Shown: positions 6,496 through 44,800 of the stretch, one piece after another
Position numbering within the stretch: the first letter of the stretch is position 1
Layout of the letters: each line of letters starts with the position of its first letter
Source: Stutzerimonas sp. S1
GTDB lineage: Bacteria > Pseudomonadota > Gammaproteobacteria > Pseudomonadales > Pseudomonadaceae
Assembly: GCF_025966695.1 (NCBI RefSeq)
Contig: NZ_JAOEIY010000001.1
Location: 186,001-250,000, forward strand
DNA: 64,000 nt
Direction: 5' to 3'
Position numbers and translations under genes: made by a program
Notes under the pieces: generated by a model
Databases searched by the model: none
What the model saw: the letters and a program-made list of their open reading frames with translations, nothing else
What the model was told of the DNA's origin: nothing

Positions 6496-7037
6496 GAGCG
6501 TGGCCCGCAATAGGCGACCGCGCTGGCCTTGAGGTGCGGCACGAAGTTGCAGGGCTTGGTGCGGCTGTCCAGCTGCTCGACGAGGATCTTGTTCCAGGCG
6601 GTGCGACAGGCATTGGTCGAGCCGGGCAGGCAGCAGACCAGGGTGCCGTTGCTCATCCCAGCCAGCGCGCGGGACTGCACGGTGGAGGTGCCGATCTCGC
6701 CCAGCGAGAAGTGGCGGAACAGTTCGCCGAAGCCGTCGACGGACTTGTCCAGCAGCGGCTGTACCGCCTGCGGGGTGTTGTCGCGGGCGGTGAAACCGGT
6801 GCCGCCGGTGATCAGCACGACCTGCACGTTCTCGCTGGCGATCCAGCTGCAGACGCGGGCGCGGATCTGCCAGATATCGTCCTTGACGATGGCGCGCTCG
6901 GCCAGGCTGTGGCCCGCGCTCAGCAGGCCGTCGATCAGGGCCTGGCCGGAGGTGTCGGAATCCAGGTTGCGGGTGTCGCTCACCGTGAGCACGGCAATGC
7001 TCAGCGGCTGAAATTCGGTGTTGGACAGGTGAGCCAT
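6492..7037 (-). CDS. moaB: Molybdenum cofactor biosynthesis protein MoaB (MogA/MoaB family)
   Basis: The 181-residue MoCF-domain protein has the pattern LTVSDTR near residue 17, VVLITGGTGF with DNTP, and the PGSTNACR segment. MoaB/MogA proteins adenylylate molybdopterin before MoeA inserts molybdenum. Its stop overlaps the moeA start, so the two are coupled. A TTGGAGGTA element at 7103-7111 upstream resembles the half-site in the narK1/narX intergenic NarL-type repeat. No gene lies between it and moaD 145 bases upstream, where moaE sits in related genomes. Confidence 0.93.
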   Translation of the reverse strand: MAHLSNTEFQPLSIAVLTVSDTRNLDSDTSGQALIDGLLSAGHSLAERAIVKDDIWQIRARVCSWIASENVQVVLITGGTGFTARDNTPQAVQPLLDKSVDGFGELFRHFSLGEIGTSTVQSRALAGMSNGTLVCCLPGSTNACRTAWNKILVEQLDSRTKPCNFVPHLKASAVAYCGPRS

Positions 7038-7104
7038 GGCTCGAAACTCCGTAGAAAATTAGCGGCAGGCTGGGCCAGTTGCAGGTCGGGGCCCATTCCC
7101 CGTT

Positions 7105-7111
7105 GGAGGTA
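7105..7111. promoter_or_regulatory. Possible NarL heptamer upstream of moaB
   Basis: GGAGGTA is preceded by TT and reads TACCTCC on the minus strand. It is identical to one arm of the 7-2-7 inverted repeat upstream of narK1. The facing arm (7096-7102) matches only about 4 of 7. It sits about 70 bases before the moaB start and would put cofactor genes under nitrate control. This is a weak single-site call. Confidence 0.35.
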
Positions 7112-7182
7112 TTTCCTCACCCTAGCCGGATGCGGCGATTCTCGCCGGCAGCTGCGACTGCAGGTCGCAAAGCGCGGGCGCT

Positions 7183-7431
7183 TCAGCCACCGGTGACCGG
7201 CGGGAAGAAGGCGATCTCGTCGCCATCTTGCAGGGGTTCAGCGGTATTGCACAGTTCCTGATTGCGCGCGCACATCAGGTTGCGCTCGGCGAGCAGCGCC
7301 CAGTGGCCACCGCGCTGCTGCAGGAACTGGCGCAGCTGTTCGATGGTAGCGAACTCGGCCTGCCACGGCAGGCGCTCGAATTCGCAGCCGAGCAGTTCGC
7401 GGTAACGGGCGAAGTAGTTGATGCGCAGCAT
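7183..7431 (-). CDS. moaD: Molybdopterin synthase sulfur carrier subunit MoaD
   Basis: The 82-residue beta-grasp ubiquitin-like protein ends in the required Gly-Gly (PPVTGG), which is thiocarboxylated and donates sulfur in molybdopterin synthesis. It starts MLRINYFARYRELLG. I place the start at the ATG at 7431 because GGAGG sits 8 bases before it; an upstream TTG overlapping moaA also exists. It follows moaA closely. The catalytic partner gene moaE is not next to it, so MoaE must be supplied from elsewhere. Confidence 0.92.
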   Translation of the reverse strand: MLRINYFARYRELLGCEFERLPWQAEFATIEQLRQFLQQRGGHWALLAERNLMCARNQELCNTAEPLQDGDEIAFFPPVTGG

Positions 7432-9562: not shown

Positions 9563-10363
9563 TCAATGCATGCCGTCCTTGAGTTTGTTCGCGGCGAAGC
9601 CCGGCAGCGGAGCGGCAGCCCCACTGGTGTTTGCCGGTGCCTCGTAGCCGCGCGGACGCTGCGGACGCGGCACCGCCGGCTTGACGCCCTTCTGGCGGAC
9701 GATCTGGTAGCGCCGGCCCAGGTACCACACCGGCGCACTGACGATGTGCACCAGCCGGGTGAAGGGGAACAGCACGAACAGGGTCAGGCCGAGGAACACG
9801 TGCAGCTTGTAGACGATGCTGACCGACTCGATGGCGCCCGCGGCCTTGATCGGCTGCAGGGTGACCACGCTCTGCGCCCAGGTGCCCAGCAGCACCATCA
9901 CCGAGCCATCGAGGTGGCCGAGCGAGGCGAAGATGGTCAGCAGGCCGAGCACCAGCTGGACCAGCAGCACGAAGAGGATGGCGATGTCGGAACGGCTGGA
10001 CGAGGCGCGCACGCGCGGATCGTTCAGACGCCGCTTGATCAGCATGACCAGACCGATCAGACAGAGCACGCCGAAGAAGCCACCGGAGACCATCGCCACC
10101 ACCTGCTTCTGGCCGCTGGTGATGAAGGAGTGGTACAGCGCTTCAGGCATCAGCAGGCCGACGAAGTGGCCACAGAGGATGAAGATCACTCCGACGTGGA
10201 ACAGGTTGCTCGCCAGGCGCATGCCCTTGGGCTGAAGCATCTGGCTGGAACCGGCCTTCCAGCTGTACTGCGACAGGTCGAAGCGCGCCCAGCTGCCGAT
10301 CAGGCAGATCGCCAGGGCGATGTAGGGATAGACCCCGAACAGCAGGAAATTGAAGTTAGACAT
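9563..10363 (-). CDS. narI: Respiratory nitrate reductase gamma subunit (cytochrome b)
   Basis: The 266-residue membrane subunit has five hydrophobic helices and histidines for two b haems (LFHVGVIFILCGH, KLHVFLGL, TRLVHIVSAP). It oxidises quinol and passes electrons to NarH. The start overlaps the narJ stop by one base (TAATG). About 40 Pro/Ala-rich residues follow the usual end (near YQIVRQKG), so the protein is longer than the roughly 225 residues typical of enterobacterial NarI. The role of this cytoplasmic tail is unknown. Confidence 0.97.
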   Translation of the reverse strand: MSNFNFLLFGVYPYIALAICLIGSWARFDLSQYSWKAGSSQMLQPKGMRLASNLFHVGVIFILCGHFVGLLMPEALYHSFITSGQKQVVAMVSGGFFGVLCLIGLVMLIKRRLNDPRVRASSSRSDIAILFVLLVQLVLGLLTIFASLGHLDGSVMVLLGTWAQSVVTLQPIKAAGAIESVSIVYKLHVFLGLTLFVLFPFTRLVHIVSAPVWYLGRRYQIVRQKGVKPAVPRPQRPRGYEAPANTSGAAAPLPGFAANKLKDGMH

Positions 10364-11109
10364 TAACGCACCTCCTGGGCCAGCGCGGCTTGCCCGTCAT
10401 GCTTGAAATCGGTCCAGTGCAGCGGCACCGGGCTTTCCTCGCGGGCCTTGCCCGGACCACCCGGCAACGACGGGCAGCGATCCTGCTGCTCGGCCTGGAG
10501 GAAGTTCACCTGCTCCTCCTCCCAGACCTTGTCGAGCGCCTCCAGCGAATCGTCGCGCTCCTCCGCGGCGACCTGCTCGCGCAGTTCGCCAACGGCCTGC
10601 TCGACGGTCTCGCCGGCGATCTGCAGCAGCGCGTGGAAACACGCCGCGTGCGGGCTGTTGCGCTCTTCCAGGCGCGCCGCCAGCAGGGCCAGCAGATGCG
10701 CCACGTCGGCCAGTCCCTCGCGGGCCTCGAGGTCCTCGCGGGTGGCGAGGTACTCGAGGTACAGCGGGATGTAGTCGGGCAGCTCGCGCACGCCGATGGC
10801 AAACCCGGCGGCCTCGTATTGCGCCATCAGGTCGACCATCGCCTGGCCGCGATCACGCGACTCGCCGTGCACGTGTTCGAACAAGAGCAGCGACAGTGTG
10901 CGACCGCGGTCGAACAGCTCGGTGTAGCGTTCCTGCACGTCCATCAAGTCGCCGGCGGCCAGCTCATCGAGCAGCGCACGCAGCGCAGCACGCTGCGCCG
11001 GGCTGATCTCACGGGCCGCGGCAATCGCCTCGGCCAGCTCGGCATGAGCGTCGCGCAGCTGCTGTTCGGGATAGTCGAGCAGCAGGGAAATCACTTTAAG
11101 GATGCGCAT
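10363..11109 (-). CDS. narJ: Nitrate reductase molybdenum cofactor assembly chaperone NarJ
   Basis: The 248-residue, helical, acidic protein of the TorD/NarJ chaperone family starts MRILKVISLLLDYPEQQL and contains the conserved DYIPLYLEYLA region. It binds apo-NarG and holds it until the cofactor and the FS0 iron-sulfur cluster are inserted. The ATG at 11109 is preceded by GAGGACTGAG and lies 3 bases after narH, and a longer upstream frame lacks support. It overlaps narI by one base. Confidence 0.96.
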   Translation of the reverse strand: MRILKVISLLLDYPEQQLRDAHAELAEAIAAAREISPAQRAALRALLDELAAGDLMDVQERYTELFDRGRTLSLLLFEHVHGESRDRGQAMVDLMAQYEAAGFAIGVRELPDYIPLYLEYLATREDLEAREGLADVAHLLALLAARLEERNSPHAACFHALLQIAGETVEQAVGELREQVAAEERDDSLEALDKVWEEEQVNFLQAEQQDRCPSLPGGPGKAREESPVPLHWTDFKHDGQAALAQEVR

Positions 11110-11111
11110 GC

Positions 11112-12650
11112 TCAGTCCTCCCACAACTGGACGGTCTTGATCACGTCGCGGCGGTTGGCCTTCTTGGCGCCGAACATGTTGGTGTCCGAGGCGCCGGAAC
11201 AGCCGCTGCCGAAGCTGAAGCCACAGCCGGAACGCTCGGCGAAGGCGTCGCTCATGGCCTCTTCGCGGTGCGCGGTCGGGATCACGTAGCGGTCTTCGTA
11301 GTTGGCGATGGCCAGGTAGCGGTACATGTCCTCGACCTGGGCGACCGACAGCCCGACGCTCTCCAGCACCTTGAGGTCCTGCACGCCGTCGACCTGCTCG
11401 GCGCGCTTGTAGGCACGCATGGCGAGCATGCGCTTGAGCGCCAGCTTGACCGGCTTCTCGTCACCGGCGGTGAGCAGGTTGGCCAGGTAGCGCAGCGGAA
11501 TGCGCAGGCTGTCGACGTCCGGCAATACGCCGTCCATGCTGACGTGGCCGGCGCTGGCGGCGTTCTGGATCGGCGACAGCGGCGGCACGTACCAGACCAT
11601 CGGCAGCGTGCGGTATTCCGGGTGCAGCGGCAGGGCCAGCTTCCAGTCCACCGCCATCTTGTACACCGGCGACTTCTGCGCGGCCTCGATCACCGACATC
11701 GGCACGCCGTCGGCCTGCGCCTGGGCGATGACCTTCGGATCGAACGGGTCGAGGAAGATGTCCAGCTGCTTCTGGTAGAGGTCCTGCTCGTTGGGCGTGC
11801 TGGCCACTTCGTGGATGCGGTCGGCGTCATACAGCAGCACGCCGAGGTAGCGGATGCGGCCCACGCAGGTCTCGGCGCAGACGGTCGGCATGCCGGCCTC
11901 GATGCGCGGGAAGCAGAAGATGCACTTCTCGGATTTGCCGCTCTTCCAGTTGAAGTAGATCTTCTTGTACGGGCAGCCGCTGATGCACATGCGCCAGCCG
12001 CGGCACTTCTCCTGGTCGATGAGGACGATGCCGTCCTCCTCGCGCTTGTAGATCGCGCCGCTCGGGCAGGCCGCCGCGCACGCCGGGTTGAGGCAGTGCT
12101 CGCACAGGCGCGGCAGGTACATCATGAAGGTGTTCTCGTACTGGCCGTAGATGTCGGCCTGCACCTTGTCGAAGTTCTTGTCCTTGCGGCGCTTGGCGAA
12201 CTCGGTGCCGAGAATCTCCTCCCAGTTGGGACCCCACTCGATCTTCTCCATGCGCTGGCCGGAGATCAGCGAGCGCGGACGGGCCACCGGCTGGTGGTCG
12301 CCCAGCGGCGCGGTGTGCAGGTGCTGGTAGTCGAAATCGAACGGCTCGTAGTAGTCGTCGATGCTCGGCAGGTCCGGGTTGGCGAAGATGTTCGCCAGCA
12401 CGCGGAACTTGCCACCAATGCGCGGGTTGATGCTGCCATCGGTGTTACGCACCCAGCCGCCCTTCCACTTGTCCTGGTTTTCCCACTCTTTCGGGTAGCC
12501 GATACCGGGCTTGGTCTCGACGTTGTTGAACCAGGCGTATTCCATGCCTTCGCGGCTGGTCCAGACGTTCTTGCAGGTGATCGAACAGGTGTGGCACCCG
12601 ATGCACTTGTCCAGGTTCAACACCATGCCAACTTGTGAACGAATCTTCAT
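11112..12650 (-). CDS. narH: Respiratory nitrate reductase beta subunit
   Basis: The 512-residue electron-transfer subunit has four iron-sulfur centres. The Cys groups are C-x2-C-x2-C-x3-C in CIGCHTCSITC, CEHCLNPACAAAC, CRGWRMCISGC and CIFC with CAETC. The Trp in the CRGWRMC group is typical of the 3Fe-4S site. It carries electrons from NarI haems to NarG on the cytoplasmic face. It is 12 bases from narG and 2 from narJ in the nar operon. Length matches the family (about 512). Confidence 0.98.
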   Translation of the reverse strand: MKIRSQVGMVLNLDKCIGCHTCSITCKNVWTSREGMEYAWFNNVETKPGIGYPKEWENQDKWKGGWVRNTDGSINPRIGGKFRVLANIFANPDLPSIDDYYEPFDFDYQHLHTAPLGDHQPVARPRSLISGQRMEKIEWGPNWEEILGTEFAKRRKDKNFDKVQADIYGQYENTFMMYLPRLCEHCLNPACAAACPSGAIYKREEDGIVLIDQEKCRGWRMCISGCPYKKIYFNWKSGKSEKCIFCFPRIEAGMPTVCAETCVGRIRYLGVLLYDADRIHEVASTPNEQDLYQKQLDIFLDPFDPKVIAQAQADGVPMSVIEAAQKSPVYKMAVDWKLALPLHPEYRTLPMVWYVPPLSPIQNAASAGHVSMDGVLPDVDSLRIPLRYLANLLTAGDEKPVKLALKRMLAMRAYKRAEQVDGVQDLKVLESVGLSVAQVEDMYRYLAIANYEDRYVIPTAHREEAMSDAFAERSGCGFSFGSGCSGASDTNMFGAKKANRRDVIKTVQLWED

Positions 12651-12662
12651 GGCATCAAATCC

Positions 12663-15600
12663 TCAGATATCTTGCGGCAGGGGTTGCGGCAGCTCGTTGC
12701 CGTTCGGGCCATCGAGCCAGTCGACCTTGTTCATCTTGCGTACCACGACGAACTCGTCGCGGTTGCAACCGACCGTGCCGTAGTAGTTGAAGCCGTAGGC
12801 CAGCTGGGCGTAGCCACCGATCATGTGGGTGGGCTTGAGCACCACGCGGGTCACCGAGTTGTGGTGGCCGCCGCGGGTCTTGGTGCTCTCGGCGCCGGGC
12901 ACGTTCACGATGCGTTCCTGGGCGTGGTACATCATCACCATGCCTTCCATCACGCGCTGGCTGACCACCGCACGGGCGGTCAGGGCACCGTTGGCGTTGA
13001 AGCACTCGATCCAGTCGTTGTCCTCGATGCCGACCTTCTTGGCGTCGATCTCGGACATCCACACGATCGGGCCGCCGCGGCTGAGGGTCAGCATGATCAG
13101 GTTGTCGGTGTAGGTGGAGTGGATGCCCCACTTCTGGTGCGGAGTGATCCAGTTCAGGCAGATCTCCGGATTGCCGTTGCTCATCTTGCCCGCCACGTAA
13201 CCGGTGGAACGGGTGTTGATCGGCGGCCGGTAGCTCTGCATGCCTTCACCGAAAGCCAGCATCCACGGGTGATCCTGGTAGAACTGCTGGCGGCCGGTGA
13301 TGGTGCGCCACGGGATGTACTCGTGAACGTTGGTGTAGCCGGCGTTGTACGACACGTGCTCGTCTTCCAGGCCGGACCAGGTCGGGCTGGAGATGATCTT
13401 GCGCGGCTGTGCCTGGATGTCACGGAAGCGGATCGCCTCGTGCTCCTTGGGCAGCGCCAGGTGGCTGTGGTCGCGGCCGGTGAACTCCGACAGCGCGGCC
13501 CAGGCCTTCACGGCGACGTGGCCGTTGGTTTCCGGCGCCAGCGAGAGGATCACTTCTGCCGCGTCGATGGCCGATTCGATCTTCGGCCGGCCCTGGCTGA
13601 CGCCCTCTTCGCGCACCTTGTAGTTCAGCTCGCCGAGGAACTCGACCTCGTGCTCGGTGTTCCAGTTGATGCCCTTGCCGCCGTTGCCCAGTTTGTCCAG
13701 CAGCGGGCCGAGGGAGGTGAACTTCTTGTAGGTGTTCGGATAGTCGCGCTCGACCACGGTGATGTTCGGGCAGTTCTTGCCCGGCACCGGGTCCTTGCCC
13801 TCGGTTTTCCAGTCGGTGCCGCCGAACGGCTGCGCCAGCTCGCCGGGGGTGTCGTGCAGCAGCGGGATGGTGACCAGGTCCTGCTCGACGCCCAGCTGAC
13901 CGACCGCCATCTCGGAGAACGCCTTGGCGATGCCCTTGTAGATCTCCCAGTCGGACTTGGCTTCCCAGGCCGGGTCGATCGCCGCGGACAGCGGGTGGAT
14001 GAACGGGTGCATGTCCGAGGTGTTCATGTCGTCCTTCTCGTACCAGGTCGCGGTCGGCAGGACGATGTCGGAGTACACGCAGGTCGAGGACATGCGGAAG
14101 TCGAGGGTGGTAACCAGATCGAGCTTGCCGATAGCGCCCTCGTCGACCCACTCGGCCTCGGTCGGCTTGAAGCCGTCGGCGCGCTTGCCGAGGTCTTCGT
14201 TCATCACGCCGTTCTTGGTACCCAGCAGGTACTTGAGCATGTACTCGTGGCCCTTGCCCGAGGAGCCGAGCAGGTTGGAACGCCAGACGAACATGTTGCG
14301 CGGGAAGTTCTCCGGGCTGTCCGGCTGCTCGCAGGAGAAGCGCAGGCTGCCGTCCTTCAGCGACTTGGTGACGTAGTCGACCGGCGACATGCCAGCGGCC
14401 TTGGCATCACGGCAGATCTGCAGCGGGTTGCGGTTGAGCTGCGGGGCGCTCGGCAGCCAGCCGGCGCGTTCGGCGCGGATGTTGTAGTCGAGCATGTGCT
14501 CGGGGAACTGCGACTTGTCGGCCAGCGGCGAGAGCACCTCGTGGATGCTCATCTTCTCGTGACGCCACTGCGAGCTGTGGTTGTAGAAGAAGCTGGTGCC
14601 GTTCATCTGCCGCGGCGGACGGCTCCAGTCGAGGCCGAAGGCCAGCGGCAGCCAGCCGCACTGCGGACGCAGCTTCTCCTGGCCGACGTAGTGGGCCCAG
14701 CCACCACCGGTCTGGCCGACGCAGCCGCACAACATCAGCATGTTGATCAGGCCACGGTAGTTCATGTCCATGTGGTACCAGTGGTTCATCGCCGCACCGA
14801 CGATGATCATGGAGCGGCCATGGGTCTTGTCGGCGTTGTCGGCGAATTCACGAGCGATCTGGATGGCCTTCTCGCGCGAGACACCGGTGATCTTCTCCTG
14901 CCAGGCCGGGGTGCCCGGCACGCTGGCGTCGTCGTAGCTGGCGGCAACGTTGCTGCCACCCAGGCCGCGGGCGATACCCAGGTTGGCGGCCATCAGGTCG
15001 AACACGGTGGCGACCTTGGCGCTGCTGCCGTCGGCCAGGGTGACGCTGGTGACCGGCACGCGGCGCAGCTGGACTTCCTCACCCTCGACGGCGGTGAAGT
15101 GCTCGTGGGTCTGCCCGCCGAAGTAGGGGAAGGCGATCTCGGCGGTCTCGCCGCCATCGATCTGGCTGAGTCGCAGGTCGATATCACGACCGGCACCGCC
15201 CTCGCGGGCTTCGATGTTCCACTTGCCCTTCTCGCCCCAGCGATAGCCGATCGAACCCAGCGGCGAGACCAGCTCGCCATTGGCGTCGACGGCGATGGTC
15301 TTCCACTCGGGGTTGTTGTCCTGGCCGAGGTTGCCGGTCAGGTCCGAGGCGCGCAGGAAGCGGTCGGCGATGTAGCTGCCGTTCTTCTCGTTGAGCAGCA
15401 CCAGCATCGGCATGTCGGTGTAGCGCTTGGCGTAGTCGGTGAAGTAGGCGCTCGGCTTTTCGAGGTGGAATTCCTTGAAGATGACGTGGGCGAAGGCCTG
15501 CGCCAGCGCGGCGTCGGTGCCCTGCTTGGGGTTCAGCCAGAGGTCGGTGAGCTTGGCCACCTCGGAATAGTCCGGGGTGATCGACACGGTCTTGGTGCCC

Positions 15601-16418
15601 TTGTAGCGGACTTCGGTGAAGAAGTGCGCGTCCGGGGTACGCGTCTGCGGGACGTTGGAGCCCCAGGCAATGATGTAGTTGGAGTTGTACCAGTCAGCCG
15701 ATTCCGGCACGTCGGTCTGCTCGCCCCACACCTGCGGCGACGACGGCGGCAGGTCGCAGTACCAGTCGTAGAACGACAGGCACACGCCACCGATCAGCGA
15801 CAGGTAGCGGCTACCGGCGGCGTAGGAAACCATCGACATGGCCGGAATCGGCGAGAAGCCGACCACGCGGTCCGGGCCGTACTGCTTGACGGTGTAGACG
15901 TTGGCGGCAGCGATGATCTCGTTGACCTCGTCCCAGCTGGAGCGGATGAAGCCGCCCATGCCGCGCTTGCTCTTGTATGAGTCGGCCTTGGCCTTGTCCT
16001 CGACGATGCTGGCCCAGGCCTCCACCGGCGCCATGTTGCGGCGTGCCTCGCGCCACAGTTTTAGCAGCGGCTTGCGCACCTTCGGGTACTTCAGGCGGTT
16101 GGCGCTGTAGATGTACCAGCTGTAGCTGGCGCCACGCGGGCAGCCGCGCGGCTCGTGGTTGGGCAGATCGTTGCGGGTGCGCGGGTAGTCGGTCTGCTGG
16201 GTCTCCCAGGTGATCAGGCCGTTCTTCACGTAGATCTTCCAGGAGCACGACCCGGTGCAGTTCACCCCGTGGGTGGAACGCACGATCTTGTCGTACTGCC
16301 AGCGTGACCGGTAGACGTTCTCCCAGTCACGGGACTCGATGCGGGTCTCGCCGTGACCCTCAGCGAACTCTCCTTGCTTGCGATTGAAAAAGCGCAGCTG
16401 GTCGAGTAGGTGGCTCAT
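12663..16418 (-). CDS. narG: Respiratory nitrate reductase alpha (catalytic) subunit
   Basis: The 1251-residue molybdo-bis-MGD catalytic subunit reduces nitrate to nitrite in the cytoplasm. The N-terminal FS0 site with His ligand is seen as HGVNCTGSC, followed by QTDYP and PRGCPRGAS. The Mo-ligand Asp region is in YDWYCDLPPSSPQVWGEQTD. The start at 16418 (MSHLLDQLRFF) has AGAGGAAAG upstream; a longer frame to 16457 has no site. Length agrees with about 1250 for the family. No Tat signal is needed in this membrane-bound type. Confidence 0.98.
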   Translation of the reverse strand: MSHLLDQLRFFNRKQGEFAEGHGETRIESRDWENVYRSRWQYDKIVRSTHGVNCTGSCSWKIYVKNGLITWETQQTDYPRTRNDLPNHEPRGCPRGASYSWYIYSANRLKYPKVRKPLLKLWREARRNMAPVEAWASIVEDKAKADSYKSKRGMGGFIRSSWDEVNEIIAAANVYTVKQYGPDRVVGFSPIPAMSMVSYAAGSRYLSLIGGVCLSFYDWYCDLPPSSPQVWGEQTDVPESADWYNSNYIIAWGSNVPQTRTPDAHFFTEVRYKGTKTVSITPDYSEVAKLTDLWLNPKQGTDAALAQAFAHVIFKEFHLEKPSAYFTDYAKRYTDMPMLVLLNEKNGSYIADRFLRASDLTGNLGQDNNPEWKTIAVDANGELVSPLGSIGYRWGEKGKWNIEAREGGAGRDIDLRLSQIDGGETAEIAFPYFGGQTHEHFTAVEGEEVQLRRVPVTSVTLADGSSAKVATVFDLMAANLGIARGLGGSNVAASYDDASVPGTPAWQEKITGVSREKAIQIAREFADNADKTHGRSMIIVGAAMNHWYHMDMNYRGLINMLMLCGCVGQTGGGWAHYVGQEKLRPQCGWLPLAFGLDWSRPPRQMNGTSFFYNHSSQWRHEKMSIHEVLSPLADKSQFPEHMLDYNIRAERAGWLPSAPQLNRNPLQICRDAKAAGMSPVDYVTKSLKDGSLRFSCEQPDSPENFPRNMFVWRSNLLGSSGKGHEYMLKYLLGTKNGVMNEDLGKRADGFKPTEAEWVDEGAIGKLDLVTTLDFRMSSTCVYSDIVLPTATWYEKDDMNTSDMHPFIHPLSAAIDPAWEAKSDWEIYKGIAKAFSEMAVGQLGVEQDLVTIPLLHDTPGELAQPFGGTDWKTEGKDPVPGKNCPNITVVERDYPNTYKKFTSLGPLLDKLGNGGKGINWNTEHEVEFLGELNYKVREEGVSQGRPKIESAIDAAEVILSLAPETNGHVAVKAWAALSEFTGRDHSHLALPKEHEAIRFRDIQAQPRKIISSPTWSGLEDEHVSYNAGYTNVHEYIPWRTITGRQQFYQDHPWMLAFGEGMQSYRPPINTRSTGYVAGKMSNGNPEICLNWITPHQKWGIHSTYTDNLIMLTLSRGGPIVWMSEIDAKKVGIEDNDWIECFNANGALTARAVVSQRVMEGMVMMYHAQERIVNVPGAESTKTRGGHHNSVTRVVLKPTHMIGGYAQLAYGFNYYGTVGCNRDEFVVVRKMNKVDWLDGPNGNELPQPLPQDI

Positions 16419-16484
16419 CGTTTCTTTCCTCTCAGGCTGAGCGCAGGCCGGGCCCACGCTCTTCTTGTAATGCTCGAAGTCGAC

Positions 16485-17906
16485 TCAGCAGGGGGTCTCG
16501 GCGCCTTTGCGCGAGTACCACCACCAGGTCACCAAAATGCAGGTCACGTAGTAGGCAACGAAGCCGTAGAGGGCCATCTCCGGGCCGCCGGTGAGGGCGA
16601 TGGAGGAGCCGAACGACTTGGGAATGAAGAAGGCACCGAAGGCACCGATCGCCGAGCTGAAGCCCAGCACCGCCGCCGATTCCTTGCCGGCAGCGCGCAG
16701 CGCCTGCTCCTGCGCCGCTGCGCCCTTGCCGACCGCGGAACGCTCGTGGAGGGTGCGGAAGATCACCGGGATCATGCGGAAGGTGGAACCGTTACCGATG
16801 CCGGTGGTGACGAACAGCAGCATGAACATCGCCAGGAAGCCGTAGAAGTTGCCGCTCTGCCCGGCCACCGGCAGGAACTGCAGTACGCCGAACACCGCGG
16901 CGATCATCACCACGAAGTTCCACAGGGTGACGCGCGCACCGCCCAGCTTGTCTGCCACGAAGCCGCCCAGCGGACGCACCAGGGCGCCGACCAGCGGGCC
17001 GAGGAAGGCGAAGCTGAGCGCGTTGACTTCCGGGAAGGAGGTCTTGATCAGCATCGGGAAGGCGGCGGCGAAGCCGATGAACGAGCCGAAGGTGGCCAGG
17101 TACAGCCAGCACATCAGCCAGTTGTGCTTGCGCTTGAAGATCACCGCCTGCTCGCTGAACGAGGCGCGCGCGGAGGACAGATCGTTCATGCCGAACCAGG
17201 CCGCGAGGGTCACCGCGAGGATGAACGGCACCCAGATGAAGCCGGCGTTCTGCAGCCACAGCTGGCCGCCGTCGGCCAGTTCCTGCGGTGCGCCACCCGC
17301 AGCGCCGAACAGGCCCATGCCGATCAGCAGCGGCACGCAGAACTGCATCACCGACACGCCGAGGTTGCCCAGGCCGGCGTTCAGACCGAGCGCGGTGCCC
17401 TGCTGGGCCTTGGGGTAGAAGAAGCTGATGTTGGACATCGACGAGGCGAAGTTGCCGCCGCCGAAGCCGCACAGCAGCGCGATGATCACGAACACGCTGT
17501 AGGGCGTCTCCGGATTCTGCACGGCGAAGCCCATCCACAGCGCCGGAATCGCCAGCGAGGCGGTGCTGATCGCGGTCCAGCGGCGGCCGCCGAACACCGG
17601 CACCATGAACGAGTAGAAGATGCGCAGGGTGGCACCGGACAACCCGGGCAGCGCCGCCAGCCAGAACAGCTGGTCGGTGCTGAAGCCGAAACCGATGGCG
17701 TTCAACCGCACGATCACCGTGCTCCAGACCATCCACACGGCGAAGGCCAGCAGCAGCGCGGGAATCGAGATCCACAGGTTGCGCGTGGCGATCGCCTTGC
17801 CGGTCGATGCCCAGAACTGCGGGTCTTCGGGACGCCAGTCATGGATGACCGGTCCCTGTTTGGGCGGCCGGTTGGCCGCGGGCGAATCGAGAACTGTCAT
17901 GGACAT
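16485..17906 (-). CDS. narK2: Nitrate/nitrite transporter, NarK2 type
   Basis: The 473-residue major facilitator protein has about 12 hydrophobic helices and the nitrate signature regions GFGGGNFASSMSNISFF and GIGNGSTFRM. The N-terminal EDPQFWASTGKAIATRNLW is typical of the NarK2 branch that exchanges nitrate for nitrite. The ATG at 17906 has CTGGAG 5 bases upstream. It lies between narK1 (12 bases) and narG in one operon. The symbol follows the narK1K2GHJI convention of pseudomonads. Confidence 0.93.
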   Translation of the reverse strand: MSMTVLDSPAANRPPKQGPVIHDWRPEDPQFWASTGKAIATRNLWISIPALLLAFAVWMVWSTVIVRLNAIGFGFSTDQLFWLAALPGLSGATLRIFYSFMVPVFGGRRWTAISTASLAIPALWMGFAVQNPETPYSVFVIIALLCGFGGGNFASSMSNISFFYPKAQQGTALGLNAGLGNLGVSVMQFCVPLLIGMGLFGAAGGAPQELADGGQLWLQNAGFIWVPFILAVTLAAWFGMNDLSSARASFSEQAVIFKRKHNWLMCWLYLATFGSFIGFAAAFPMLIKTSFPEVNALSFAFLGPLVGALVRPLGGFVADKLGGARVTLWNFVVMIAAVFGVLQFLPVAGQSGNFYGFLAMFMLLFVTTGIGNGSTFRMIPVIFRTLHERSAVGKGAAAQEQALRAAGKESAAVLGFSSAIGAFGAFFIPKSFGSSIALTGGPEMALYGFVAYYVTCILVTWWWYSRKGAETPC

Positions 17907-17918
17907 GCTCCAGGTAGG

Positions 17919-19181
17919 TCAGGACGCGGAGGGCTGCTGGCCTTGGCCGGCCTTGCCCATCAGAGGGGTTCTGCGCACTTCGCTGAAGTACATCCAGATC
18001 AGGGAGACCCAGACCACGCCGTACAGCAGCATGAAAGCGGAGGAGCGCACGCCGGTGAGGTCCACCAGCGCGCCGAACATGATCGGCAGTACGAAGCCAC
18101 CGAGGCCGCCGGCCAGGCCGACGATGCCGGAGATAACCCCCATGTTCTCTGGGTAGTCATCGGAGATGTACTTGAACACCGAGGCCTTGCCGAAGGCGAA
18201 GGCGATGCCGACGATGAACATCAGCGCGGTGAACACCCAGACGTTGAGGCCGATGTGGAAGGTGCGCGAGCCCTCGACGGTCTGGATGGTGAAATCGGTC
18301 TGCGGGTAGGACAGCAGGAACAGGCACACCCAGCTCACCCACATCACCCACCAGGTCACGCTCTGCGCGCCCCACTTGTCCGACATCCAGCCACCCACCG
18401 CGCGCAGCACACCGCCGGGCAGCGAGAAGCAGGCAGCCAGCAGCGCGGCGCTCTGCAGGCTGAAGCCGTACTCCTGCACGTAGTACTTGGTCATCCACAG
18501 CGCCAGCGCGACGTAGCCGCCGAAGACGATCGAGTAGTACTGGCAGTAGCGCCACACGGCGGGATCCTTCAGCGCCAGCAGCTGGCTCTTGAGGGTGACC
18601 GTGCTGGACACCCGGTGCGCCTTGTTCTCGCTGGTGAGGAACCAGAACAGCAGCGCGGTGATGAACATGATCGCCGAGTAGACCTTGGGCACCATCTGCC
18701 AACTGCCGGCGGCGATGATCGCCGGGGCGATGAACTTGGTCAGCGCGGAACCGGCGTTGCCGGCGCCGAAGATGCCCATGGCGAAGCCCTGGTTGCTCTT
18801 GTCGAACCATTTGGCGACGTAGGCGATACCCACCGAGAACGAGCCACCGGCCAGACCGACGAACAGGCCGAGGACGAGGAAGTGCCAGTACTGCGTCGCC
18901 TCGGCGATCAGGTAGATCGGCAGCACGCAGACCATCATCAGCACGAAGAAGACGATGCGTCCGCCGAACTTGTCGGTGAGCATGCCCAGCGGCAGCCGCA
19001 CCAGCGAACCGGTAAGCACCGGCGTCGCGGCGAGCAGACCGAACTGGGTTTCGTTGAGTTGGAAGATTTCCTTGATCGGTACCCCGAGCACGGCAAACAT
19101 CATCCAGATCATGAAACAGATGGTGAATGCGACGGTGCTCATCCCCAGCACCAGGCCCTGCTGCATGTTCAACTTAGCCAT
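17919..19181 (-). CDS. narK1: Nitrate transporter, NarK1 type
   Basis: The 420-residue major facilitator protein starts MAKLNMQQGLVLGMSTVAF and has about 12 helices. The signature GGSFSVGIAYVAKWF lies in helix 5, and GIVGLAGGLGGFVLP near the end. NarK1-type carriers are thought to be nitrate/proton symporters. It is the first gene of the narK1K2GHJI operon, with GGGGGAG before the ATG. An ANR/DNR box 62 bases upstream and a NarL-type inverted repeat about 115 bases upstream fit control by low oxygen and nitrate. Confidence 0.93.
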   Translation of the reverse strand: MAKLNMQQGLVLGMSTVAFTICFMIWMMFAVLGVPIKEIFQLNETQFGLLAATPVLTGSLVRLPLGMLTDKFGGRIVFFVLMMVCVLPIYLIAEATQYWHFLVLGLFVGLAGGSFSVGIAYVAKWFDKSNQGFAMGIFGAGNAGSALTKFIAPAIIAAGSWQMVPKVYSAIMFITALLFWFLTSENKAHRVSSTVTLKSQLLALKDPAVWRYCQYYSIVFGGYVALALWMTKYYVQEYGFSLQSAALLAACFSLPGGVLRAVGGWMSDKWGAQSVTWWVMWVSWVCLFLLSYPQTDFTIQTVEGSRTFHIGLNVWVFTALMFIVGIAFAFGKASVFKYISDDYPENMGVISGIVGLAGGLGGFVLPIMFGALVDLTGVRSSAFMLLYGVVWVSLIWMYFSEVRRTPLMGKAGQGQQPSAS

Positions 19182-19242
19182 GTCGGACTCCCCCGAACGG
19201 TCGACTTGGCTCGCACGCTAGTGACGCGAGGACTGGATTCCG

Positions 19243-19256
19243 TTGACTTGGATCAA
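19243..19256. promoter_or_regulatory. ANR/DNR (FNR-type) box upstream of narK1
   Basis: TTGAC-TTGG-ATCAA matches the FNR-type consensus TTGAT-N4-ATCAA at 9 of 10 bases. Its centre (19249.5) would be at -41.5 for a narK1 transcript starting near 19208, with a weak -10 (TAGCGT on the minus strand, 19215-19220). That is the class II activator position. Confidence 0.85.
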
Positions 19257-19294
19257 GAAGGTATTTCCGACCAAAAGAGTATGATTTACCCCGC

Positions 19295-19310
19295 TACCAC
19301 CTTGGAGGTA
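19295..19310. promoter_or_regulatory. NarL-type 7-2-7 inverted repeat in the narK1/narX gap
   Basis: TACCACC, TT, GGAGGTA form two facing heptamers separated by 2 bases, the NarL 7-2-7 arrangement. Each arm differs from the TACYNMT consensus at the last base. A further heptamer TACCCCG lies at 19287-19293. The site is shared by divergent narK1 and narX. Confidence 0.65.
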
Positions 19311-19411
19311 GCTCATTTTTTCAGGGTTATTTCCTTATCGATCAGCTACTTACATAGTCCTCTCCAGAACGGACAAGCGAAGCGGCGAGCCCGGAACTCT
19401 TTGGAGGTAGC

Positions 19412-21220
19412 GTGCGGATATTCCAGTGGATCAGGGCATCCCTGCCGGCGCGGGCCGGCATTGCCGTCCTGCTGATCGGTACGCTGGCGCTCGGCAGCGC
19501 GGTGAGTGCCGGACTGATCGCCTGGCTCAGCGAGGACGATGCCGCGGCAATCAATACCGCCGGTTCGCTGCGCATGGCGGTGTACAAGCTGAGCTGGCAA
19601 CTGGAAGCCGACGCGCCCACCGAGGACATCCAGAAACTGGGGCGCAACTTCCAGCACCGCCTGGAAAGCATCAACCTGACGCGCATTCTCAAGAACGATC
19701 CGCAGTCGGATCTCAACCTGGCCTATGCCGGCCTGCGCGAGCGTTGGCGCGGTCAGCTCAGCCCGGCGCTGGAACGCGGCGACGCTCGCGCCTTCCATGC
19801 CAACGCCGATGATTTCGTCGAGCAGCTCAACCAGTTCGTCTTCCTGCTGCAACGCCAGAGCGAGCGCAAGCAGAGCTGGCAGCTGGCGATCCAGGGCACC
19901 GCGCTGTTCGTCACCGTGATGGTGCTGATGGTCGGTATGTACAGCCTGCAGAGCGGCGTGCTCAACCCTTTGCAGGAACTGGTGAGCGCCACCGAACGCT
20001 TCCGCGCCGGCGATCTCACCGCGCGAGTGCAGTACAGCTCCGAGGACGAGCTGGGGCGCATGGCCTACAGCTTCAACACCATGGCCGACGCACTGGAGCA
20101 GTCCCATCACACCCTGGAAAGCCGCGTCGCGCAGAAGACCGCCCACCTTGCGCAGGCCAACGCCGCCCTGCAGCTGCTTTTCCAGGGCAGCCGCAGCCTG
20201 GCCAGCGGGCCGGCCAGTGCCGAGTCGCTGGACAAGCTGATCGACAGCTTCCAGAACCGCCTGCCAGGGCTGCGCCTGACCCTGTGCATGCACGGTGATC
20301 CTCGCGAGCCGGCCGAACAACTGATTGCCCTGCACGGCAGCGAGCTGCGCGAGATCTGCTCGCCGGGCGACTGCGCCACCTGCACCCTGCAGAAGCGCCG
20401 CAACGTCATGGCCTGCCCGGTGGTGAACCAGGGCAGCGAGCTGGGCGAGCTGCGCGCCGCCTTCGCCGATGGCCGCGCCCCGCAGCAGTGGGAAATGGAA
20501 CTGATCGAGGCGCTGGCCAACCTGATCGGCACCGCGCTGTCGCTGGAGCGGCGCCGCGAGCAGGATCATCGCCTGCTGCTGTTCGAAGAGCGCGCCATCA
20601 TCGCCCGGGAGCTGCACGACTCGCTGGCCCAGGCGCTGTCTTACATGAAGCTGCAGGTCAGCCGCCTGCAGACACTCATGTACCGCGGCGAGCCGCCGGA
20701 GCAGCTGGAGAAGGTCACCGAGGAAATCCGCGACGGGCTGAACAACGCCTATCGCCAGCTGCGCGAGCTGCTCACCACCTTCCGCCTGAAGATCCAGGAC
20801 GGCGGACTGGGCAAGGCGCTGGAAGACACCGCCCGCGAGTTCTCCGAGCGTGGCCAGTTCCCGGTGCGGCTGAACGTCAAGGCGCTGCCCTTCGACCTGT
20901 CGGCCAGCGAGCAGATCCACCTGCTGCAGATCGCCCGCGAGGCGCTGTCCAACTGCGCCCGCCATTCCGGCGCCGACCACGTATGGATCACCCTGCAGCA
21001 GGCCGGAGCGGAGGTCGAGATGCTCATCGAGGACGACGGCTGCGGCGTCTCCGGCGATTTCGACAAGCGCCAGCACCACGGCCTGACCATCATGCTCGAG
21101 CGCGCCCGCCACCTGCACGGCAGCCTTCGAATCGAACCGCGCGAGCCCAACGGCACGCGTGTCCATCTGCACTTCGCGCCAGAGTTCCTTGGTCGCGATC
21201 TCGAGAGACAACACGCATGA
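19412..21220 (+). CDS. narX: Nitrate/nitrite sensor kinase NarX
   Basis: The 602-residue membrane kinase has a first transmembrane helix near 16-38 and the periplasmic P-box (NTAGSLRMAVYKL, 48-60) that binds nitrate. A second helix lies near 165-185, followed by HAMP. The cytoplasmic Cys cluster is C316, C321, C324 and C335. The HisKA_3 motif has H402 (ARELHDSLAQAL), followed by a short HATPase with DDGCGV. The start is GTG with GGAGG 5 bases upstream. It overlaps narL by ATGA and is divergent from narK1. Confidence 0.97.
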   Translation: MRIFQWIRASLPARAGIAVLLIGTLALGSAVSAGLIAWLSEDDAAAINTAGSLRMAVYKLSWQLEADAPTEDIQKLGRNFQHRLESINLTRILKNDPQSDLNLAYAGLRERWRGQLSPALERGDARAFHANADDFVEQLNQFVFLLQRQSERKQSWQLAIQGTALFVTVMVLMVGMYSLQSGVLNPLQELVSATERFRAGDLTARVQYSSEDELGRMAYSFNTMADALEQSHHTLESRVAQKTAHLAQANAALQLLFQGSRSLASGPASAESLDKLIDSFQNRLPGLRLTLCMHGDPREPAEQLIALHGSELREICSPGDCATCTLQKRRNVMACPVVNQGSELGELRAAFADGRAPQQWEMELIEALANLIGTALSLERRREQDHRLLLFEERAIIARELHDSLAQALSYMKLQVSRLQTLMYRGEPPEQLEKVTEEIRDGLNNAYRQLRELLTTFRLKIQDGGLGKALEDTAREFSERGQFPVRLNVKALPFDLSASEQIHLLQIAREALSNCARHSGADHVWITLQQAGAEVEMLIEDDGCGVSGDFDKRQHHGLTIMLERARHLHGSLRIEPREPNGTRVHLHFAPEFLGRDLERQHA

Positions 21221-21861
21221 ACGACACCCGCCACAGCATCCTGCTCGTCGACGACCACCCGATGATGCGTCGCGGCATGCGCCAGCTGCTCGAACTGGAG
21301 GACGACTTCGTCATCGTCGGCGAAGCCAGCGATGGTGAGGAGGCCCTGCGCCGGGTGCCGGAGCTGCAGCCGGCGCTGATCCTGCTGGACAACAACATGC
21401 CCACGCTCAACGGCATCGAGACGCTCAAACGCCTGCGCCAGGACGGTTACGAGGGTAAGGTGCTGCTGTTCACCGTCTCCGATGCCGAGGAAGACGTGCG
21501 CGACGCGCTGCGCTTCGGCGCCGATGGCTACCTGCTCAAGGACATGGAGCCGGAGAAGCTGATCCAGCAGATCCGCGAGGTGCTGCAGGGTGATCTGGTG
21601 GTCAGCCCGGCGCTGGCGCGGGTCATGGCCCAGGCGCTGCGCGTCACCGGCAGCACGCCGGAGATCGAGCTCACCGAGCGCGAGCGCCAGGTACTGAAGA
21701 TGATCGCCGGCGGCAACAGCAACAAGATGATCGGCCGCAAGCTGGGCATCACCGAAGGCACGGTGAAGGTCCACGTGAAGAATCTGCTGCACAAGCTCGG
21801 TTTGCGCTCGCGGGTCGAGGCCGCCGTGTGGGCGCTGGAGAACGAGCGCCTGCGCGGCTGA
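21217..21861 (+). CDS. narL: Nitrate response regulator NarL
   Basis: The 214-residue LuxR/NarL-class regulator has a receiver domain with the DDHPMMRRG acidic site, phospho-acceptor D58 (ILLDNNMP) and the Lys in GYLLKDMEP. The C-terminal helix-turn-helix is LTERERQVLKMIAGG...TVKVHVKNLLHKL. Its ATG overlaps the narX stop. Phosphorylated NarL would bind the heptamer sites seen upstream of narK1 and possibly moaB and the sensor-like gene at 22157. Confidence 0.97.
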   Translation: MNDTRHSILLVDDHPMMRRGMRQLLELEDDFVIVGEASDGEEALRRVPELQPALILLDNNMPTLNGIETLKRLRQDGYEGKVLLFTVSDAEEDVRDALRFGADGYLLKDMEPEKLIQQIREVLQGDLVVSPALARVMAQALRVTGSTPEIELTERERQVLKMIAGGNSNKMIGRKLGITEGTVKVHVKNLLHKLGLRSRVEAAVWALENERLRG

Positions 21862-22023
21862 TCCGCGCACGGCGGTGCCCCTGGGGTAGTCCGAAAGGCA
21901 TAGCGCCCGGCCCGCCGCGAAGCCTCGCCACGCCTGCCCGACAACACCACCCCTGCAGCCCGGAGCCGTACTCGGCTGCCGGTCGGGCGCCATAAAGACA
22001 TACCTCCTTCGGCTCGGCGTCGC

Positions 22024-22064
22024 TTGATCGCCATCATGGGCCGCCCGACAAAGCCGCCTATCGT
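22024..22064 (+). promoter_or_regulatory. ANR/DNR-type box and -10 upstream of the tandem-sensor gene
   Basis: TTGAT-CGCC-ATCAT (22024-22037) matches the FNR-type consensus at 9 of 10 bases. A TATCGT -10 candidate at 22059-22064 would start transcription near 22071, which puts the box centre at about -41.5. Two NarL-like heptamers lie upstream, TGGGGTA at 21882-21888 and TACCTCC at 22001-22007. The predicted leader is about 85 bases. Confidence 0.6.
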
Positions 22065-22156
22065 CTGCCGCGACCTCGCGCGCCGGCCTGTCCGAGACGG
22101 GTAGCGGCGGCGGACTGCCGAGCCTGCGTGCTCGCCCATCCCGAAGGAGCCGTTCC

Positions 22157-22942
22157 ATGTTTCAGCACCTGCTGCCCGCTTCGCTGCTGCTCGGCCTGCT
22201 GCTGGGCGCCCTGCCCTGCCAGGCGGCCATCAGCGATGCCGAAGCCGTCAACCGCGCCGGCCTGCAACGCATGCTCGGCCAGCGCATCGCCAGGAGTTAC
22301 CTGATGCTCGGTACCGAGACGCGCACCGAGTTGGCGCAGGCGCAGCTCGACAGCAGCATCGCCAGCGTCGAGGAAAACAGCCAGCTGCTCGGCGACTATG
22401 CGCCGAGCGCCGCCATCCGCAATGCCGTGGGCGAAGCCGGACTGACCTGGCAGCAATTCCGCGAGCTGGCGCTGGGCCGGCCGGACAAGACACAGGCGCT
22501 GGAGATGCTGCGGCTGGCCGAAAGCTTTCTCGGCCAGAGCGAGGTGCTGGTGCAGCAGATCGAACAGCACAGCGGCAGCCAGACCGCGCGCCTGGTCAAC
22601 CACAGCGGCCGTCTGCGCATGCTCAGCCAGCGGATCGCGATGCTCTACCTGGCGCTGAGCTGGAACCTGCCGGATGCCGGGCTGCAGCGCAAGTTCGACA
22701 CCGCCGTGGAAGAATTCGATCAGGGGCTGAGCGAGCTGCACGCGGCGAAGCAGAACACCGAAGAGATCAACGATCGTCTCGAGCACATCAGCAACCAGTG
22801 GCGCTTCGCCCGCGTCGGCTTCCAGCTGGCCCACGATTCGCGCTACGTGCCGACGGTGATCGTCACCACCAGCGACTCGCTGCTGCAGAAACTGGAGGCA
22901 TTGACCGCCGACTATGCGCAGCTGGCGCAGGCGGCACGCTGA
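22157..22942 (+). CDS. Periplasmic protein with two tandem NarX/PilJ-type sensor modules
   Basis: The 261-residue protein has a Sec signal peptide (cleavage near CQA, residue 23) and no later membrane helix, so it should be a free periplasmic protein. Two related four-helix modules follow. Each begins with a P-box-like motif, VNRAGLQRMLGQRIA near 30 and VNHSGRLRMLSQRIA near 148. The NarX P-box in this window is NTAGSLRMAVYKL. It corresponds to the type IV pili methyl-accepting transducer N-terminal domain (PilJ_N). No kinase or signalling part is present. It lies downstream of narL behind its own ANR-type box. A nitrate/nitrite-binding accessory role is inference. Confidence 0.8.
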   Translation: MFQHLLPASLLLGLLLGALPCQAAISDAEAVNRAGLQRMLGQRIARSYLMLGTETRTELAQAQLDSSIASVEENSQLLGDYAPSAAIRNAVGEAGLTWQQFRELALGRPDKTQALEMLRLAESFLGQSEVLVQQIEQHSGSQTARLVNHSGRLRMLSQRIAMLYLALSWNLPDAGLQRKFDTAVEEFDQGLSELHAAKQNTEEINDRLEHISNQWRFARVGFQLAHDSRYVPTVIVTTSDSLLQKLEALTADYAQLAQAAR

Positions 22943-44557: not shown

Positions 44558-44633
44558 TGGTGGGTCGTGTAGGATTCGAACCTACGACCAATTGGTTAAA
44601 AGCCAACTGCTCTACCAACTGAGCTAACGACCC
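44558..44633 (-). tRNA. tRNA-Lys (anticodon TTT)
   Basis: The 76-base sequence folds as a cloverleaf. The acceptor GGGTCGT pairs with ACGACCC, the D-arm is AGCTCAGTTGGTAGAGC, the anticodon loop CTTTTAA carries TTT, and the T-arm GTTCGAATC is present. CCA is encoded. It is the last tRNA in the operon Asn-Pro-Lys. Confidence 0.97.
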
Positions 44634-44638
44634 AAAAA

Positions 44639-44715
44639 TGGTCGGGGTAGGGGGATTCGAACTCCCGACATCCTGCTCCCAAAGCAGGCGCGCTACCGGA
44701 CTGCGCTATACCCCG
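44639..44715 (-). tRNA. tRNA-Pro (anticodon TGG)
   Basis: The 77-base cloverleaf has acceptor CGGGGTA, anticodon loop CTTTGGGA carrying TGG, T-arm GTTCGAATC and encoded CCA. It lies 5 bases upstream of tRNA-Lys. Confidence 0.97.
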
Positions 44716-44724
44716 ATTGGAAAT

Positions 44725-44800
44725 TGGCTCCGCGACCTGGACTCGAACCAGGGACCCAATGATTAACAGTCATTTGCTCTACCGACTGAGCTATCGCGGA
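44725..44800 (-). tRNA. tRNA-Asn (anticodon GTT)
   Basis: The 76-base cloverleaf has acceptor TCCGCGA, anticodon loop CTGTTAA carrying GTT, T-arm GTTCGAGTC and encoded CCA. It is the first tRNA of the operon, 45 bases after the predicted transcription start. Confidence 0.97.

Follow-up and report, generated by a model that had tools for sequence, protein, structure and literature searches.

A secreted protein of two NarX/PilJ-type modules encoded behind narXL in Stutzerimonas, a candidate periplasmic nitrate/nitrite receptor

The stretch of DNA analysed here, 64,000 nucleotides (nts) of the Stutzerimonas sp. S1 genome and referred to as the window, carries behind narX and narL an open reading frame (ORF) on the plus strand (22157-22942, ATG start) for a protein of 261 residues, which we call P261. 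The product appears to be secreted and is composed of two PilJ/NarX-type four-helix modules, with no output domain. Its N-terminal 23 or so residues (1-23, 22157-22225) read as a signal peptide ending in QAA, and a stretch of the same type is kept at this position in the orthologues. Module 1 (residues 26-139, 22232-22573, helices 1-4) and module 2 (residues 142-259, 22580-22933, helices 5-8), on the same strand, were delimited by the helices of the predicted structure described below. When the protein was compared with Pfam, PF13675 matched two stretches with 71.3 bits against a cut-off of 26.6 and was the sole model over its cut-off; no model for a kinase, HAMP, DHp or ATPase domain matched, and at E <= 1 there was no match to PF00015, the signalling domain of methyl-accepting chemotaxis proteins (MCPs), or to PF08376, the NIT domain. 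These results agree with the sequence-only reading of this DNA, which had proposed a secreted soluble protein of two NarX/PilJ-type modules devoid of kinase, HAMP and methyl-accepting parts. PF13675 was also matched by all 20 scanned members of the P261 family (E <= 0.1), and PF08376 was not among the matches listed for them, which cover 25 of 27 families.

P261 is under purifying selection. The ratio of nonsynonymous to synonymous substitution rates (dN/dS, by a simple counting method) was 0.04-0.34 in 12 pairs, and an intact orthologue is present in 29 of the 56 Stutzerimonas genomes that make up our genus survey, and a pseudogene or chance ORF was rejected on these grounds. A lipoprotein is unlikely, because the Cys of the LPCQ sequence is not conserved across the orthologues. 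The gene is single-copy in the 4.2-Mb source genome (one match at E <= 10), and recent mobile import was rejected, there being no DNA match in the plasmid collection and no phage family match at E <= 0.01. At the protein level two distant homologues lie on plasmids, both in Cupriavidus; the one on the plasmid of Cupriavidus sp. P-10 follows a gene coding for a short PilJ-MCP protein and one for a di-haem MauG-like protein (L033, 11686-15696).

The P-box-like motif that had been read in each module is indeed present in both, with G-x-x-R intact. We compared the two motifs with the N-box of McpN, for which PMC6381276 gives the pattern [IVL][ND]xAGxQRML[ST]Q. N-box 1, VNRAGLQRMLGQ (22247-22282, plus strand, with G35 and R38), agrees with it at 11 of 12 positions and N-box 2, VNHSGRLRMLSQ (22595-22630, plus strand, with G151 and R154), at 10 of 12; box 1 of some orthologues, for example VNRAGMQRMLSQ, fits exactly. 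Conservation was counted in 121 aligned rows including the window, that is, 124 rows less three with very long branches. R38, Q42 and Q158 were conserved in 100% of the rows (rounded), G151 and R154 in 99% and G35 in 98%, and mean column conservation in the box helices was 0.70 and 0.69, compared with 0.47-0.52 in the other six. Such symmetric conservation is what a shared two-arginine site would require, although it does not prove nitrate to be the ligand. One sub-family has the boxes MNMAGLQRS and NRSGWxRV.

The structure of mature P261 was predicted with AlphaFold2, using two relatives as additional input. The model has eight helices in two sets of four, with a predicted local distance difference test (pLDDT) score of 90.5 and a predicted template modelling score (pTM) of 0.89; mean pLDDT was at least 85.6 in four of the five models and 59.9 in the fifth. 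The top structural match was the NIT domain of NasR (4akk_B; Z 20.9, root-mean-square deviation 3.0, 234 of 238 residues). The matches after it had Z of 16.6 or less across about 114 residues, one half of P261 each: PilJ 16.6, LytS 16.5, McpN 16.2 (6gcv_C, 112 residues, on module 1), NarQ 14.7 (5iji, on module 2) and NarX 13.1 (3ezh, on module 2). With this aligner, Z below about 13 for helical bundles may reflect a common arrangement only, and the best Z of helical models that lack a clear match is typically 14. The single-half matches are therefore weak, and the whole-length match to NasR is well above this background. The NarX-type bundles expected from the sequence-only reading are at least not contradicted by the predicted model, whose halves match 6gcv, 5iji and 3ezh at Z 13-16. 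Among the 50 Foldseek matches listed, 4akk had the highest query template modelling (TM) score, 0.50-0.53; PilJ 8wdf and 7zjr had the best E-values, yet a query TM of 0.29, and unrelated helical proteins reached 0.43. When the profile of the P261 family was searched against the sequences of solved structures, McpN was best (E 1.9e-8) and PilJ matched weakly (0.02-0.03); phmmer with P261 alone gave no significant match in the same sequences. The two four-helix bundles of P261 are predicted to pack as an intramolecular pseudo-dimer resembling the NIT domain of NasR.

The described N-box/P-box nitrate sensors NarX, NarQ, McpN and NasR each bear their own output domain. The NIT domain of NasR, a Klebsiella transcription antiterminator (PDB 4akk), shares with P261 the predicted whole-length fold, in which two bundles pack like a NarX dimer, and an arginine in the box of each bundle (Arg50 and Arg176 in NasR according to PMC7247690, R38 and R154 in P261); P261 differs in lacking the PF08376 match and the ANTAR output domain and in having a secretion-type start. 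The ligand-binding domain of McpN, a nitrate chemoreceptor of P. aeruginosa (PDB 6gcv), is alike in PF13675, the N-box and the four-helix bundle, but McpN has one module per chain, carries a chemoreceptor part and binds nitrate across a homodimer (PMC6381276). The sensor domains of NarX and NarQ (PDB 3ezh and 5iji) resemble P261 in the four-helix bundle, the P-box G-x-x-R and the gene neighbourhood; the HAMP and kinase parts of these proteins are absent from P261, whose box is of the QRML type and not the SLRMQSYRL given in PMC8199190. The PilJ ectodomain (PDB 7zjr and 8wdf) likewise has two PilJ-type modules per chain and was aligned by the family profile over the whole length, but its overall arrangement is unlike that of P261, as seen from the query TM scores above, and in the profile alignment G-x-x-R is found in the first of its two modules only. 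DrpA of Thermus thermophilus is similar in being periplasmic, encoded beside a nar operon, Dnr-dependent and proposed as a nitrate sensor, whereas its domain is unrelated (DUF2249) and it has neither a signal peptide nor a nitrate-binding motif (PMC6282519). The sensor domain as such is already known, and the novelty lies in the secretion of two such modules as a free protein under an ANR-type promoter of its own; full-text searches of an open-licence library gave no such form, although earlier studies may mention the ORF.

The promoter region of P261 contains an ANR/FNR box, TTGATCGCCATCAT (22024-22037, plus strand), which matches 9 of the 10 scored positions of TTGAT-N4-ATCAA, and a -10-like hexamer, TATCGT (22059-22064, plus strand), 21 nts past the box. 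Sites of at least 9/10 occur three times in the window (22024, 19243 and 51519); the third, TTGATCCGCAGCAA at 51519-51532, is distant from the nar genes. When the 300 nts upstream of the 29 orthologues were searched, a box of at least 8/10 was found in 24, compared with 2.2% of shuffled regions, and one of at least 9/10 in 22, compared with 0.1% of shuffles. In all 24 box-bearing promoters a TATCKT hexamer (TATCGT or TATCTT) stands exactly 21 nts past the box. Among the five boxless orthologues, four (G013, G034, G037 and G051) have a 9/10 box preceding a porin-like gene (PF13372) situated, in the same orientation, between narL and P261, and the fifth (G014) has an 8/10 site at -301 from P261. 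The diverged P261 paralogue and the two Cupriavidus homologues had no box above 7/10 within 400 nts. A box at fixed spacing to the -10 element is the layout of a class II FNR-type promoter and, judged by its sequence, the P261 promoter is of a conserved class II ANR/FNR type. The FNR-type box claimed by the sequence-only reading was therefore confirmed as a site above chance, and the position claimed for its centre, near -41.5, agrees with the predicted -10 hexamer.

The same reading had listed two NarL-like heptamers, of which one stands and the other found no support. TACCTCC (6/7; 22001-22007, plus strand) lies 23 nts upstream of the box start, and TACCTCY occurs at this offset in 6 of the 24 promoters, one from each of the six genomes of the window's NarXL type; in two of them the match is 7/7 (TACCTCT). 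TACCTCC is also found twice between narK1 and narX in the window. Between narL and P261 the window has no 7/7 heptamer and five 6/7 heptamers, compared with 1.6 expected from the whole window. The remaining P261 promoters have, by eye, a TTTCTGTGCG-like stretch in common; a search for this pattern in five loci gave one exact match (L064) and otherwise two-mismatch matches only. In promoters of the second NarXL group, for example L064 at 12258, a TTTTGTGCG-like stretch occupies, about 40 nts before the ANR box, the place that TACCTCY has in the window's group.

On the minus strand of the window lie moeA, a gene for a rotamase and then narI-narJ-narH-narG-narK2-narK1, with some unannotated ORFs between moeA and narI; narX-narL-P261 follow on the plus strand. 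The minus-strand genes are narJ and narI (9563-11124; PF02613 and PF02665), narH (11112-12650; TIGR01660, 1028 bits), narG (12663-16457; TIGR01580, 2460 bits), narK2 (16485-17906; TIGR00886, 371 bits, above cut-off) and narK1 (17919-19181; TIGR00886, 209.9 bits, under cut-off). The plus-strand narX (19412-21220, GTG start) scored 414.3 bits with PRK10935 (NarQ) and 388.1 bits with PRK10600 (NarX), both under cut-off, and its product has the P-box AAINTAGSLRM; narL (21217-21861, plus strand) scored 289.3 bits with PRK10651 (NarL), above cut-off. The second 9/10 ANR-like box, TTGACTTGGATCAA (19243-19256), lies between narK1 and narX. Downstream of P261 are a small minus-strand ORF with no Pfam match and a gene for a zinc peptidase.

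A contig search gave only two close relatives, S. nitrititolerans GL14 and S. stutzeri V81. In the genus survey, a diverged paralogue (about 37% identity) was found in 8 genomes and remnants in 6, besides the 29 with an intact orthologue. NarG is present in 27 of the 56 genomes, and full or contig-cut NarX also in 27, five of the 32 genomes with NarX matches at E <= 1e-30 having kinase fragments only. P261 occurs in 24 of the 27 narX-bearing genomes. In 22 of them it follows narL, either directly (18) or with the porin gene in between (4; the order in G051 was read from L002). Its place beside narXL, which the earlier reading expected of close relatives, is thus kept in most narX-bearing genomes of the genus, and the nar neighbourhood supports the proposed linkage to nitrate respiration. 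Co-occurrence of narG and P261 was 24/3/5/24 (both, narG only, P261 only, neither; Fisher p 5e-8, uncorrected for ancestry, linkage and joint deletion), and none of the seven genomes without NarG and NapA has an orthologue. Because P261 remnants were found in six narG-less genomes (G008, G010, G021, G039, G048 and G054), joint deletion can explain part of this co-occurrence, and linkage alone was rejected as proof of function. Three genomes (G004, G005 and G018) have no narG and lack most of narX, and keep narL and P261. Two others (G049 and G055) keep P261 with its promoter and have NapA, with no NarG or NarX at E <= 1e-30; dN/dS of P261 between the two was 0.09, at a dS of 1.19 that is near saturation. 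In G003 and G015, P261 is distant from the nar genes and narXL and retains the promoter elements; behind narL, where P261 is expected, these genomes have a gene for a Crp/Fnr regulator (L056, 5245-6012; L057, 5724-6404).

These positions bear on the proposal that P261 is a specific partner of NarX, which would bind the periplasmic domain of NarX and alter its response to nitrate and nitrite. The location downstream of narL in 22 of the 27 narX-bearing genomes is in its favour, as is a homologue near narXL in a genome beyond the genus (G820, L218), and accessory proteins of histidine kinases are known, as described for QseG-QseE (PMC12691602). However, Stutzerimonas has two narK-narX-narL sets that are non-orthologous, one in the window (16485-21861) and the other in L058-L065 and L067. 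When the best match to each window protein was compared (5 and 9 genomes), identity between the sets was 36.5% for NarX, 61% for NarL, 30% for NarK1 and 50% for NarK2, where NarK1 and NarK2 may be one ORF in the other set, and within the window's set it was 82%, 83%, 95% and 95%, respectively. The flanking proteins stay similar between the sets (NarG 92.9%, NarH 96.6%, zinc peptidase 86.5%), and P261 shows 63% identity between the sets compared with 68% (group B) and 77% within them, the values for P261 and the zinc peptidase being from 5 and 6 genomes. Since the flank proteins and P261 stay orthologous across the sets, P261 went with the flank and not with the cassette, and a partner of NarX only might be expected to swap along with it. 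This swap with P261 retained, together with the low dN/dS of P261 in the two genomes without NarX and NarG, is the strongest evidence against a NarX-specific role. The position of P261 away from narXL in G003 and G015 argues in the same direction, as do three genomes that have narX and narG and no P261 (G011, G043 and G053) and the retention by NarX of its own P-box in the 15 sequences compared. We thus regard a role specific to NarX, as the sequence-only reading had suggested, as unlikely. In G044 (L066 4896-6310), the narK2 match is in two overlapping pieces, which suggests a frameshift in the assembly or the gene.

A dnr-type gene of the Crp/Fnr family follows P261 on the same strand in 15 of the 29 orthologues (for example L064, 12463-13960), at a distance of 28-82 nts, with start codons picked by script. 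In 14 of the 15 gaps there are one or more perfect NarL heptamers, with an inverted pair in G017 and G033, and the ANR box and -10 element of P261 lie within 300 nts in 14 of the 15, G014 being the one without them. No intrinsic terminator was found between the two genes in the single locus scanned (L064), and folding of the gap was no better than that of shuffles. Behind P261 of the source genome, no dnr gene lies within 1.5 kb. According to PMC13086519, in which narG and dnrE were deleted in S. decontaminans 19SMN4, dnrE lies in the nar cluster beside narXL, and the intergenic region before it contains two putative NarL sites but lacks an FNR box; its response to oxygen is unexplained there, a point left open for nitrite accumulation in Stutzerimonas. 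The gene behind P261 is very probably dnrE. In 14 of the 15 genomes with the pair, the dnr gene has the ANR-type promoter of P261 some 1 kb before it. As far as sequence can tell, this promoter could also feed dnrE, and it offers a direct way to ask why dnrE is oxygen-responsive when no FNR box was found in front of it.

Beyond the genus, the P261-family profile matched at least 20 of 398 genomes sampled from the phylum, 21 of 369 from the class and 80 of 298 from the family. These samples overlap and include genus members and a few remnants, and the counts are lower bounds, because scoring was limited to a few top candidate stretches per genome. Loci were taken from all 17 (phylum) and 19 (class) matching genomes outside the genus and from 41 of 46 for the family; the set outside the Stutzerimonas orthologues comprises 80 loci from 73 genomes (L092-L111 and L164-L223), many on short contigs. 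Firm nitrate genes lie within about 10 kb in eight loci (L095, L097, L099, L100, L102, L105, L171 and L218) and plausible ones in two more (L186 and L221); some proteins of the search panel were obtained from, or confirmed by, L095, L099, L102 and L105. The homologue in L097 is beside narGHI, and those in L099, L100, L102 and L171 are beside nrt-type transporter genes. NCBIfam supported NirB, NasA-like, NarK, NarG and nitrate ATP-binding cassette permease and ATPase proteins among these neighbours, partly below cut-off, and gave no match for the NrtA-like protein that was scanned, one of two. The genes of L218 run dnr, P261 homologue, porin, an unrelated gene, McpN-like MCP, moeA, carbonic-anhydrase-like gene, narL and narX, with the MCP and carbonic-anhydrase labels read from sequence; the McpN-like chemoreceptor gene, which has an N-box module, is split across two adjacent ORFs (5601-7259). 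PP2C-like/kinase-like fusion genes stand beside P261 homologues in the nitrate assimilation clusters of L102 (12000-13712, NCBIfam below cut-off) and L099 (9928-11685).

Most other relatives adjoin other genes, read as glp-, flagellar- and malonate-decarboxylase-like, and 70 of the 80 loci have no nitrate-gene matches or doubtful ones. P261 might accordingly sense another small anion, or none, with its nar linkage being positional; the sub-family with divergent boxes fits this, and the PilJ fold need not bind nitrate, as indicated in PMC6381276. Against it, hardly any variation is seen at the two arginines and two glycines of the boxes, several kinds of nitrate cluster are found repeatedly, and the promoter beside narL is of the ANR type, so we consider this explanation quite improbable. 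In a tree of 124 of the 126 rows (identical rows dropped, rows below 200 residues excluded) made by a quick method and with many long branches, the 33 orthologue rows from 29 genomes form one clade (100) near the porin-linked rows, and the nas/nir/nrt context needs at least four changes; context labels were set by hand, and G018 (L021), with narL beside P261, was kept under 'other'.

The PF13372-like porin gene immediately precedes a P261 homologue in the same orientation at 19 distinct loci, of which 4 are in Stutzerimonas and 15 outside the genus (for example L001 6483-7793, L062 14434-15750, L063 7198-8508 and L208 7721-9028); the count is from 21 rows, two of which (L001 and L063) represent the same locus and one of which (L183) has a weak porin match and no P261 match. 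Together with the relatives beside nrt-type transporter genes, this favours a periplasmic buffer or carrier, in which P261 would hold nitrate or nitrite near an outer-membrane channel, Nap or NarK. However, the PF13372 matches that give the porin its identity are weak, one of three being below cut-off, and the porin model has a pLDDT of 27. The source genome has no such porin at E <= 1e-5, for which reason it was rejected as a partner of P261 in the window, and bundles of the NarX/PilJ type are known as sensors and not as carriers. A buffer or carrier is therefore improbable, to about the same degree as a NarX-specific partner.

The best explanation, to which we give about an even chance, is that P261 is a free-standing, ANR-controlled periplasmic receptor for nitrate or nitrite, a NIT-like pseudo-dimer whose partner is not exclusively NarX. 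Taken by itself, nitrate or nitrite as the ligand is probable. In the predicted fold, a single chain of P261 would contain the two-arginine site for which NarX, NarQ and McpN have to dimerise, and one nitrate may be held between R38 and R154 in a pocket between the bundles. P261 would be synthesised via ANR when oxygen falls, with NarL perhaps tuning it in the window's lineage, and the ligand may alter the packing of the bundles, upon which P261 would act on a membrane partner carrying the output, a co-sensor function towards NarX being one option. Several observations weigh against such a receptor. Neither box of the window's P261 fits the strict N-box pattern exactly. The structural model was built on three sequences, Foldseek gave no match at E <= 0.001, and LytS, which senses another ligand, equals the nitrate sensors in single-half matches. 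The tandem ectodomain of PilJ from P. aeruginosa failed to bind nitrate (PMC6381276), indicating that the PilJ fold is insufficient. No partner of P261 was found, narX and narG occur without P261 in the three genomes named above, the association with narG in the genus is confounded by joint deletion, and only 8 of the 80 loci beyond the orthologues have firm nitrate genes. What had been proposed as a soluble ligand-binding signalling part thus survives as a soluble periplasmic NarX/PilJ-type protein with an FNR-type promoter and a linkage to nitrate respiration, without the specificity for NarX.

With a soluble nitrate receptor, nitrate sensing in denitrifiers would have a further layer that had not been suspected, and P261 is a compact single-chain protein that is simple to assay. 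A wider proposal, which we hold tentatively and consider somewhat doubtful, is that a widespread family of free periplasmic, single-chain, two-N-box nitrate receptors has been recruited repeatedly by clusters for nitrate respiration and assimilation, and heads an ANR-controlled P261-dnrE unit in Stutzerimonas. If so, the receptor, being a pseudo-dimer, would need no partner for its ligand site, and dnrE would be fed by the ANR promoter of the preceding gene. Elsewhere in the window, a cluster of tRNA genes for Lys, Pro and Asn lies at 44558-44800 on the minus strand.

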